From: a virus
IMG/VR virus record: IMGVR_UViG_3300042341_000008
Location: 1 to 23,040 of that record
Reading direction: 5' to 3' (one strand)
Length of the DNA stretch: 23,040 nucleotides
In this document: in pieces, positions 9,033-21,847 of the stretch
Layout: each line of letters opens with the position of its first letter
Position numbering within the stretch: position 1 is the first letter of the stretch
Made by a program: the position numbers and the translations under genes
Notes under the pieces: model-generated
What the model saw: the letters and a program-made list of their open reading frames with translations, nothing else
Databases searched by the model: none
Told to the model about the DNA's origin: nothing

Positions 9033-9482
9033 ATGAACTGCGACCATATCAGCAAAGTTGTTAAAGATGGTTATAATTTAATAGATGGACAGATGTATTC
9101 AACAGTTCTTATCTGGGGATGCACCAAATGTGATGCAACTTCAACAGAACCTCTATATGATATGAACGCATCGTTTGGAACCAAAGAACCTTGTAAAGAA
9201 AATTGTGACTGTTTTGGCTGTAAGGCTAGAGGATTACAAATGAATACAGGGGATGCAGGCAGACCCGTTGGCAAGAAGGAATGGGAAGGTCGGTTAAAGT
9301 TTTATAAGGATGCTAGAAATCAAGGTATCCAACCAGCAGGAACGCAGAGACTTCAAGTTGAAGCGGCATACAAAGCAAGCGAAACATTGGGTAAAGCATA
9401 CGATGCTGGAACAATGGGTGTAAGAGCAGACAAAGTTACGAAATCCGTAGCAGCAGTCATGAAAGAAACTGGAGCAGCATAA
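9033..9482 (+). CDS. Cys-rich zinc-ribbon-like protein
   Basis: A 149-residue protein starting at ATG 9033, seven bases after the previous stop, with an AGGG ribosome site. The N-terminal half carries possible metal ligands: Cys3-x-His5 with Cys30-x2-Cys33, spaced like a zinc ribbon, and a second dense group Cys54, Cys58, Cys60, Cys63. The C-terminal half (KKEWEGRLKFYKDARNQGI, then ETLGKAYDAG) is helical and basic. It lies among head genes, so a structural zinc-binding head protein or a host-directed factor is possible. No enzyme motif was found. The metal binding is inferred from residue spacing only, and the function is unknown. Confidence 0.8.
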   Translation: MNCDHISKVVKDGYNLIDGQMYSTVLIWGCTKCDATSTEPLYDMNASFGTKEPCKENCDCFGCKARGLQMNTGDAGRPVGKKEWEGRLKFYKDARNQGIQPAGTQRLQVEAAYKASETLGKAYDAGTMGVRADKVTKSVAAVMKETGAA

Positions 9483-9604
9483 TGATGAAGAAAAAAGCAG
9501 GCAAGATGGCAGCAATGATGATGGAAATGCCTATGGCTAAAAAGAAGGTTGCAAAGAAGACCGCTAAGAAGGCTATGCCAAAGAAGATGGGCAAGAAGAA
9601 GTAA
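9482..9604 (+). CDS. Tiny Lys/Met-rich basic protein 1
   Basis: A 40-residue open frame starting at ATG 9482, which overlaps the previous TAA as TAATG; a second ATG follows at 9485. About 17 of 40 residues are Lys and nine are Met, with a run of AKK units ending PKKMGKKK. The composition resembles short histone-tail-like or nucleic-acid-binding peptides. It lies between two real genes with one-base overlaps on both sides, which is strong evidence that it is translated even though it is very short. It may neutralise packaged DNA or bind the capsid interior; that is inference. Confidence 0.7.
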   Translation: MMKKKAGKMAAMMMEMPMAKKKVAKKTAKKAMPKKMGKKK

Positions 9605-20650: not shown

Positions 20651-20709
20651 AACGACGAAACCCCCTTACCTTAGTAAATATACTAGGGCGAGGGGGTCTT
20701 TTGTCGTTT
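20651..20709. terminator. Large stem, probable bidirectional terminator
   Basis: AACGAC (20651-20656) pairs with GTCGTT (20703-20708). Inside it, AAACCCCCT (20658-20666) pairs with AGGGGGT and the T-run (20691-20701, with a bulge), and an inner arm pairs CCTTAGTA (20669-20676) with TACTAGGG (20681-20688) around AATA. A TCTTTT run follows the G-run on the plus strand, and TTTCGTCGTT follows on the minus strand. It lies between the ends of the convergent holin gene and the leftward gene at 20717, so it should end both transcripts. Confidence 0.85.
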
Positions 20710-20716
20710 CTAGAGG

Positions 20717-20887
20717 TTAATCTTCTTCGTATTCCTCAAACTCAAGGTCTTCCAGATGGTCCAAAAGTAGTTGGATTTCTTTCTTTCGCTTCTTTACACG
20801 CCACTCATCAATCACGGCTGTAATGATATTAACCGAAAATAGGCCAACTGATGAGCCAAAGAATACAGCCCAGAATGTATTTGACAT
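20717..20887 (-). CDS. Leftward single-pass membrane protein, 56 codons
   Basis: This is the only supported minus-strand gene. ATG at 20887-20885 has AAGGAG eight bases upstream (plus-strand CTCCTT, 20892-20897), and the stop is TAA at 20719-20717. The product is 56 residues. Residues about 4-25 are hydrophobic (NTFWAVFFGSSVGLFSVNII), followed by DEWRVKKRKKEIQ and an acidic C-terminus (DLEFEEYEED). One membrane segment with a basic then acidic cytoplasmic tail is expected. It has its own strong promoter (20968-20995) and ends at the bidirectional terminator. Candidate roles are a superinfection-exclusion, immunity or lysis-timing peptide. It resembles no named family known to me. Confidence 0.72.
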   Translation of the reverse strand: MSNTFWAVFFGSSVGLFSVNIITAVIDEWRVKKRKKEIQLLLDHLEDLEFEEYEED

Positions 20888-20926
20888 AGAACTCCTTCGA
20901 TATTATAATATATATATTAACATATC

Positions 20927-20950
20927 ATATAAGGCCAAAGGCCTTTATAT
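20927..20950 (-). promoter_or_regulatory. Hairpin in the leader of the leftward gene
   Basis: AAGGCC (20931-20936) pairs with GGCCTT (20940-20945) around AAA, extended by ATAT/ATAT pairs beyond a one-base bulge. It lies in the roughly 74-base leader expected for the leftward transcript, 40 bases before the start codon. It may stabilise the mRNA or attenuate it. Confidence 0.4.
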
Positions 20951-20967
20951 AATTACTTACATAATTA

Positions 20968-20995
20968 ATTATACTCATAAATTTTAGAATGTCAA
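20968..20995 (-). promoter_or_regulatory. Leftward sigma-70 promoter
   Basis: Read on the minus strand, TTGACA (20995-20990) and TATAAT (20973-20968) are both perfect consensus boxes, separated by 16 bases. The expected start is near 20961, giving a leader of about 74 bases before the 56-codon gene. Its -35 box is the left end of the palindrome at 20990-21015. Confidence 0.8.
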
Positions 20996-21015
20996 ATAGT
21001 TATAACTAATTGACA
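20990..21015. promoter_or_regulatory. Palindromic operator between divergent promoters
   Basis: A 26-bp inverted repeat: outer arms TGTCAA and TTGACA flank the perfect 12-base palindrome TAGTTATAACTA (20997-21008). Only the A/A pair at 20996 and 21009 breaks the symmetry. The two outer arms are the -35 boxes of the two divergent promoters, so a dimeric repressor bound here would block both. The binding protein is not identified in this window. Confidence 0.7.
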
Positions 21016-21038
21016 GTAACCCAACTGGTCTGTATACT
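21010..21038 (+). promoter_or_regulatory. Rightward sigma-70 promoter, probable leaderless start
   Basis: TTGACA (21010-21015) and TATACT (21033-21038) are separated by exactly 17 bases. A transcription start seven bases after the -10 box falls at 21045, the A of the ATG of the exonuclease gene. There is no Shine-Dalgarno sequence before that ATG, so the mRNA is probably leaderless, a common mode in actinobacteria. Confidence 0.85.
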
Positions 21039-21044
21039 ACCAAC

Positions 21045-21236
21045 ATGGCTATCGAACTAGAAGACTACACATTACCTGAGCATATGTCCTATTCGGCATT
21101 CTCAACATACCTAACCTGTGGCTACCAATACTACCTCGGACGACTCCTCAACAAGGAGGAAGCACCTTCGGTGTGGTCAGTTGGTGGCTCTGCATTTCAC
21201 CTTGCTTGTGAAAACTACGACAAGGAGACATTATGA
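21045..21236 (+). CDS. Cas4/RecB-like exonuclease, N-terminal half
   Basis: A 63-residue chain starting at ATG 21045, directly at the predicted transcription start. LEDYTLPEHMSYSAFSTYLT matches the SxSxxxxYxxCxxxYYL opening of RecB/AddB/Cas4-type PD-(D/E)XK exonucleases. Cys25 in TCGYQYYL is the expected first ligand of a 4Fe-4S cluster, and GSAFH (His52) is nuclease motif I. It stops at TGA 21234-21236, where full-length relatives, as I recall them, continue into the part encoded by the next gene. The nuclease degrades or resects DNA ends in replication and recombination. The split may be a natural two-subunit design or a frameshift. Confidence 0.75.
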   Translation: MAIELEDYTLPEHMSYSAFSTYLTCGYQYYLGRLLNKEEAPSVWSVGGSAFHLACENYDKETL

Positions 21237-21847
21237 CCCAAGTGCAAGAACTATGGAGTCAAGCATGGACCGAGTGCAAGGGAGACCTTGACCTAACCAA
21301 TGCTCGTGTTGGTGGTCGTGCTACTAAGGCTAATCCAAACAAAGAAGACGTTAATTTCTGGCAAGGTCAGGGACCTAAGTGGGTAGAGGGTTACATCGCT
21401 TGGCGTGAACTGAATAAAGACTGGAAGATTTGGCGAGCGCCAGACGGCAATCCAGGCATCGAACTTGCTCTAACACCTGTTGTTGCAGGAGTCCCAGTCA
21501 AGATGATTATTGACCGTGTATTTGAGGTCAACGGGCAACTCGTTATCTGCGACCTTAAAACATCCCAGCAGACTCCATCTAGCAGTCTCCAACTTGGCTT
21601 CTATAAACTCGGCATCGAACAGACGTTCGGAGTCGAAGTTAAGTGGGGAAATTACTATATGGCACGTGGTAACTCAACGTCAGATATGGTAGACCTGTCA
21701 GAATACACTTACGACAAAATGGAATACCTAATAAAACAATTTGACACAGCACGCAAGGCTGGTATATTCTTGCCCAACACAAACAACTGTCAATATATGT
21801 GCGGGTTAACCGAGTATTGTCAGTTCTCTACTAAGAAGGATAAATAA
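21233..21847 (+). CDS. Cas4/RecB-like exonuclease, catalytic C-terminal part
   Basis: A 204-residue chain. Its ATG overlaps the previous TGA (ATGA) in the -1 frame, with AAGGAG (21222-21227) five bases upstream, so it can start independently. WQGQGPKWVEGYIAWRE precedes the nuclease core: Glu77, Asp94 in IDRVFEV, the DLK triad Asp107-x-Lys109, and Gln120/Tyr124 in LQLGFYKLG, matching PD-(D/E)XK motifs II-III and the QxxxY helix. The end carries Cys186-x3-Cys190-x5-Cys196, the three C-terminal ligands of the Fe-S cluster. Together with Cys25 and His52 of the preceding chain this makes a complete active site. The next gene overlaps its stop. Confidence 0.85.
   Translation: MTQVQELWSQAWTECKGDLDLTNARVGGRATKANPNKEDVNFWQGQGPKWVEGYIAWRELNKDWKIWRAPDGNPGIELALTPVVAGVPVKMIIDRVFEVNGQLVICDLKTSQQTPSSSLQLGFYKLGIEQTFGVEVKWGNYYMARGNSTSDMVDLSEYTYDKMEYLIKQFDTARKAGIFLPNTNNCQYMCGLTEYCQFSTKKDK

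Follow-up and report, generated by a model that had tools for sequence, protein, structure and literature searches.

The virus record analysed here, referred to in its whole length as the window, comprises 23,040 bases with a GC content of 43%. It encodes a major capsid protein (phrog_1357), an endolysin, a PD-(D/E)XK nuclease, an L5 gp49-like protein and a DnaB-like helicase. In the phage collection, its closest kin are the cultured Planktophila phages LanE43-AprE7 (E7, OX376640) and LanE43-AprF5 (F5, OX376641), with an identity of 59% in the nuclease and 63% in the capsid protein. E7 and F5 have genomes of 39.1 and 38.9 kb and lysed their host, and whiB-like and sigma-70 genes were reported in them (PMC10202952). 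From this kinship we infer that the window phage infects freshwater actinobacteria, and it is probably lytic. The genome in the window is incomplete, and statements on genome-wide gene content rest on relatives; one of these, G001, is complete and has a 123-base terminal repeat.

Predicted divergent promoters, leader and split nuclease

The features of the region are as follows.

20652..20708, no strand assigned: probable terminator, a strong inverted repeat with a T-run, read from the sequence
20717..20887, minus strand: gene of 56 amino acids with a single hydrophobic segment and an acidic tail, also in 17 close relatives
20885..20973, minus strand: conserved leader module of the leftward gene (covariance model R1 and pair counts)
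20968..20973, minus strand: -10 box TATAAT of the predicted leftward promoter, 16-bp spacer; TATA[AC]T in relatives
20990..20995, minus strand: -35 box TTGACA of the predicted leftward promoter; consensus, found in relatives
20990..21015, no strand assigned: near-perfect palindrome TGTCAAATAGTTATAACTAATTGACA, 12 of 13 pairs, unique in the window
20996..21009, no strand assigned: 14-bp core ATAGTTATAACTAA, flanked by the -35 boxes; marked by low diversity in the near group of relatives and by dyad excess
21010..21015, plus strand: -35 box TTGACA of the predicted rightward promoter; conserved in relatives, or altered jointly with the partner box
21033..21038, plus strand: -10 box TATACT of the predicted rightward promoter, 17-bp spacer; 6-7 bases before the ATG in relatives
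21045..21236, plus strand: N-terminal part of a PD-(D/E)XK (Cas4-like) nuclease (Pfam PF12705, phrog_69)
21233..21847, plus strand: C-terminal part of the nuclease (PF12705; phrog_1870, E=1.7e-41), with an ATGA overlap with the first ORF

A preliminary description of this DNA had reported a 26-bp inverted repeat with a perfect 12-base core whose ends are the -35 boxes of two divergent consensus promoters. Both statements were confirmed: the sequence and coordinates of the repeat are exact, with 12 of 13 pairs formed, and the promoter pair recurs in relatives. The minus-strand promoter TTGACA-16-TATAAT matches the consensus at 12 of 12 positions and the plus-strand promoter TTGACA-17-TATACT at 11 of 12, and the ends of the palindrome are perfect -35 boxes of both, 14 bp apart. 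The hexamers of the two strands point apart with spacers in the 16-18 bp range of a divergent sigma-A promoter pair, and the arrangement recurs in relatives. The two are predicted to be strong primary-sigma promoters lying back to back, with predicted starts of transcription on either side. A third and perfect match, TTGACA-17-TATAAT at 20881-20909 on the plus strand, coincides in part with the start codon and the ribosome-binding site of the leftward gene; it also occurs in near relatives, is not found as such in the group B relatives described below, and may be a coincidence.

The centre of the palindrome is perfect over 12 bases, and the sole failed pair is 7/20 (A/A). It is the only 26-mer with at least 12 pairs in the whole window, where no other site lies within three mismatches of it. 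Under a first-order Markov model, 0.025 such palindromes are expected per window, and they arose in 0.2% of simulated 157-bp intergenic regions; the arrangement TGTCAA-14-TTGACA occurred in none of 4000 simulations. With both -35 boxes given, the core alone forms 6 of 7 pairs (p ~0.02-0.03). The self-complementarity of the core in the window sequence alone is thus mildly unusual, and the stronger case comes from relatives. The simulations, the core diversity and the shuffles led us to reject chance alone as the cause of the palindrome.

On the leftward side, the small membrane gene adjoins the endolysin and holin genes, and the probable terminator has the lysis genes on one side and the leftward gene on the other. 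In relatives the product of this gene has 49-56 amino acids and a KD maximum of 1.3-2.3. The leader module consists of the -10 box, a covarying stem (20951-20966), a GC hairpin (20931-20945), an AT-rich repeat, a ribosome-binding site and the ATG. RNAalifold returned no structure for the leader alignment, probably owing to alignment slips in the A+T-rich stretches, and pairing was assessed by pair counting instead. By this count the stem and the GC hairpin each contain three compensatory pairs, above shuffled and slid controls. Covariance model R1 found one strong copy (E <=7e-6) in each of the ten relatives from which longer stretches had been retrieved, and the leader had no match in Rfam. 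Because the first stem starts ahead of the expected transcription start, its role may lie in RNA or in DNA. The leader may merit a separate study.

On the rightward side, the -10 box is separated from the nuclease ATG (21045) by 6 bases, and in relatives where it could be placed the distance is 6-7 bases. Because of this spacing the rightward mRNA is probably leaderless, with the ATG at or beside the transcription start. The nuclease is also split in G001 (24505-25361), G003 (28687-29525) and E7 (L129 2311-3088); the two ORFs overlap by the 4-base ATGA in the window, G001 and G003, and by 17 bases in E7. Since the split is found in distant relatives too, it looks genuine and not like a sequencing error. 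Genes for a helicase and a primase neighbour the site, and the nuclease and gp49-like genes have mycobacteriophage relatives.

In E7 and F5, as in the window, a hairpin-rich A+T stretch lies between the lysis genes and the split nuclease. They differ from the window in having neither the small leftward gene nor the TTGACA palindrome. On the plus strand 5' of their nuclease (L129 2080-2320 in E7, L130 2090-2320 in F5) lie a promoter-like box TGTGTATAMT, hairpins and a long stem-loop, which in E7 has a fold z-score of -5.6. The leftward gene is reduced to an apparent ATG-TAA remnant. The covariance model did not support a reading of this region as the leader in reversed orientation.

The promoter pair and its core in relatives

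A search with the nuclease gave 192 encoding stretches, from which 80 loci were kept and 59 distinct intergenic regions were read. These comprise 29 regions with a TTGACA-type pair (group A), 20 of a second type (group B) and 10 others. In group B both -35 positions hold SCVACG-type hexamers with a 17-bp spacer on each side: CCAACG, CCGACG or CCCACG for the leftward promoter and GCGACG, GCAACG, GCCACG or, once, GCATCG for the rightward one, the last being an exception to SCVACG. The two boxes change jointly: among the regions read, none was seen to combine a TTGACA box with an SCVACG box. Group B members (L041, L047, L051, L055, L060 and others) have, between the -10 boxes and in place of the TTGACA pair, an exact or nearly exact inverted repeat CGTYG-5-CRACG, whose arms differ in step in some lineages (CGTTG/CAACG, CGTCG/CGACG).

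The distance between the two -10 boxes also falls into classes. It is always 49 bp in group B, 58-62 bp in group A (68 bp in two regions) and 58-59 or 68-71 bp in the others where it was measurable; distances of 50-57 or 63-67 bp did not occur among the regions read. The classes are suggestive of steps of one helical turn, counted over few independent lineages, since shared ancestry leaves fewer cases that count separately. In the nuclease tree group A occupies the deeper branches, while group B falls inside a well-supported subclade that also holds some group A members. From this placement the TTGACA pairs are probably ancestral and group B derived. The tree was built without the window sequence, which was placed near L018 by 92% protein identity.

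An altered phage sigma factor as the cause of the -35 change was not obvious, as sigma region 4 is near-identical in G001 and G007. A few other matches to SCVACG-type promoters were found in one group B genome, none of them convincing outside the divergent site. In 12 relatives searched, the pair occurred at most once per genome in the divergent region, and stray matches to a loose pattern did not exceed the reversed control. A degenerate palindrome pattern had no match in 84,980 species genomes, and a literature search on divergent phage promoters returned nothing.

Conservation of the core was assessed in a near group comprising 14 loci, of which 11 are distinct. There the core has a mean diversity of 0.12 and the boxes one of 0.07, compared with 0.51 for the left spacer and 0.39 for the right spacer, and four-fold sites of the nuclease diverge pairwise by 0.39-0.58 between the main lineages. 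Core diversity lies far below that of the spacers and four-fold sites, which argues that the 14-bp core is under selection in the near group. At most core positions A and T have not been swapped, despite the strong divergence of neutral sites. The four distinct near-group cores imply an ancestor ATAGTTATAACTAT that would make the 26-mer a perfect palindrome. Relative to this putative ancestor one pair is lost in the L024-type core, one in the L029-type, one in the window and two in L018.

Co-variation of the palindrome arms, to which the preliminary description had pointed, was not seen: the near-group variants are single unpaired substitutions, not compensated by changes in the other arm. The symmetry itself exceeds expectation. 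When the composition of the core halves was preserved in shuffles, 23 of 28 dyad pairs were observed in the four near-group cores against 10.6 expected (p<0.0001), and 28 of 45 against 21.1 (p=0.001) in the other cores with a spacing of at most 14 bp; these p values count related sequences as independent.

Outside the near group the TTGACA pair is retained with different core sequences and spacings of 12-22 bp. Within the same nuclease clade, both boxes of L042 flank a different core, and one box is missing from each of L023, L026 and L046, the last of which has an extended half-site on one side only. These deviations indicate that the core is a clade-level feature and not a family-wide operator. 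The expectation that the palindrome core would be conserved in relatives therefore has a mixed outcome: it holds for the near group, and in wider relatives and in L042 the boxes were kept and the core changed, with some self-complementarity surviving outside the near group.

Possible joint control of the two promoters

We consider the region to be a back-to-back pair of early promoters that is jointly controlled through the dyad, including the -35 boxes, and give this reading a probability of about 0.5. We rank it ahead of promoters acting alone, a replication origin and a lysogeny or lysis switch, in that order. From the rightward promoter the operon of nuclease, helicase and primase would be transcribed into a probably leaderless mRNA, and the leftward promoter would start the structured leader and the small membrane protein. 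RNA polymerases, or a symmetric protein on the dyad, would contact both promoters, and this shared contact would keep their relative helical position and -35 type in step. In group A, repression or mutual exclusion would be likeliest because both -35 boxes would lie under the bound protein. In group B, which lacks TTGACA, the site may serve an activator instead, or make a different contact with sigma.

A dyad-symmetric site overlapping both -35 boxes is a feature expected of the operator of a dimeric repressor. Consensus promoters, a core conserved beyond neutral expectation, dyad excess, -10 distances in separate classes, paired -35 types, a single copy per genome and the sigma and WhiB genes of relatives all speak for joint control. 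Against it, core sequence and length vary where both boxes are kept, which leaves no single operator shared by the family; no regulator was identified, near-group core substitutions are uncompensated and independent lineages are few. The earlier proposal that one bound dimer shuts off both promoters is accordingly retained in part: the conserved dyad makes a symmetric reader reasonable and the operator idea plausible in the near group, while the variation of the core elsewhere speaks against a family-wide operator.

The strongest competitor, which we regard as possible and less probable than joint control, needs no dedicated regulator. Two consensus -35 boxes would simply face outward from an A+T-rich stretch serving alpha-CTD or sigma/WhiB contacts, and the polymerases would at most hinder each other. 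It accounts well for the exact coincidence of the palindrome arms with the -35 boxes, for the persistence of the TTGACA pair with unrelated A+T-rich cores outside the near group, for the one-sided half-site of L046 and for the modest p value of the window core once the boxes are given. It accounts poorly for a near-group core in which A and T are mostly not interchanged, for a dyad excess that survives shuffles preserving half composition, and for the inverted repeat that group B retains without any TTGACA.

It is improbable that the site is a transcription-primed replication origin, at which the palindrome would bind an initiator or set the priming transcription. GC content over 120 bp reaches its genome-wide minimum here in G1, G2 and G3, and one of its lowest values in G8; the leader module is present in one strong copy per genome with hairpins showing compensatory changes, and the helicase and primase genes are adjacent. 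E7 and F5 also have an A+T-rich hairpin stretch here, in a similar layout on the other strand and without the small gene; however, the covariance model does not recognise this resemblance, the site has no GC-skew minimum, and A+T-rich promoter regions are common.

The arrangement is of a known kind, and its details are new. In phages lambda (PR/PRM) and P2 (Pe/Pc), divergent early promoters share an operator. Like these, the promoters described here are close and opposed, and one bound protein could affect both. Unlike them, the palindrome arms are the -35 boxes themselves, the site is single without a series of operators, there is no adjacent repressor gene, and the cultured relatives are lytic. 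The stoperators of mycobacteriophage L5 (cluster A), GGTGGMTGTCAAG, contain TGTCAA overlapping the -35 box. The likeness to the present site extends to the mycobacteriophage kin of the nuclease and gp49-like genes; the L5 sites, however, are asymmetric and repeated, and in our search at up to three mismatches the stoperator was not enriched (12 matches against 9.3 expected by chance).

The preliminary description had also seen a lysis-timing or superinfection switch here, and although the geometry would permit one CI-like dimer to silence both promoters in a lysogen or to delay lysis, and the small membrane gene adjoins the endolysin and holin genes, we find this very unlikely, given that neither an integrase nor a classical HTH repressor was among the matches listed for the scanned ORFs of the complete relative G001, that the site is single-copy without operator repeats or enrichment of L5 stoperators, that E7 and F5, cultured though more distant than the near group, lyse their host (PMC10202952) and lack both the palindrome and the membrane gene, and that a search of 84,980 species genomes of bacteria and archaea confirmed no nuclease relative, and therefore no sign of prophages was seen.

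For joint control, the site might be read by the phage WhiB or sigma factor, by a small phage protein without annotation, or by a host protein. Among the non-structural genes of G001 are a sigma factor (phrog_354, E=2e-15) and a WhiB (PF02467, E=3.5e-10), and relatives of both are present in all nine other genomes compared. The cognate HTH repressor gene envisaged in the preliminary description did not appear: no classical HTH repressor and no integrase were among the matches listed (25 of 31 and 25 of 37) for 25 mostly non-structural ORFs of G001. Two small genes of G001 (30869-31147 and 31171-31464), common only to G001-G004 and with no assigned function, are also candidate regulators. WhiB-type proteins bind region 4 of sigma-A, and WhiB7 contacts AT-rich DNA directly upstream of the -35 box (PMC10245118). 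Because the core sits where WhiB7 makes this contact, we take a reading of the core by the phage WhiB, by analogy, as a lead. Like WhiB7/sigma-A promoters, both -35 boxes have a conserved A+T-rich stretch directly upstream and the relatives encode WhiB; unlike in WhiB7, no AT-hook (RGRP) is visible in the phage WhiB.

The joint change of the -35 pair and the apparent movement of the spacing by whole helical turns suggest a stricter form of joint control, which is tentative and rather unlikely: the two promoters would have to share their -35 type and DNA face, with one symmetric complex reading both. Such a complex might perhaps consist of phage WhiB and sigma-A on each side.

The phage group has cultured members infecting 'Ca. 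Nanopelagicales', among the commonest freshwater bacterial orders. If joint control is true, the early switch of the whole group would be testable in a cultured phage-host system, and the relatives would offer a graded set of naturally paired promoters in which to study the coupling of divergent promoters. Even as an ordinary promoter pair, the site would indicate where early transcription of these phages likely starts, and that one early mRNA lacks a leader.

Two further observations were made outside the divergent region. A match TTGACA-18-TATACT lies on the minus strand of G001 (32867) and G003 (37207), where it precedes a small gene in the leftward cluster that holds whiB. In the window, the short ORF at 9482-9604 encodes a product very rich in lysine, alanine and methionine (MMKKKAGKMAAMMMEMPMAKKKVAKKTAKKAMPKKMGKKK), which is perhaps a DNA-binding peptide.
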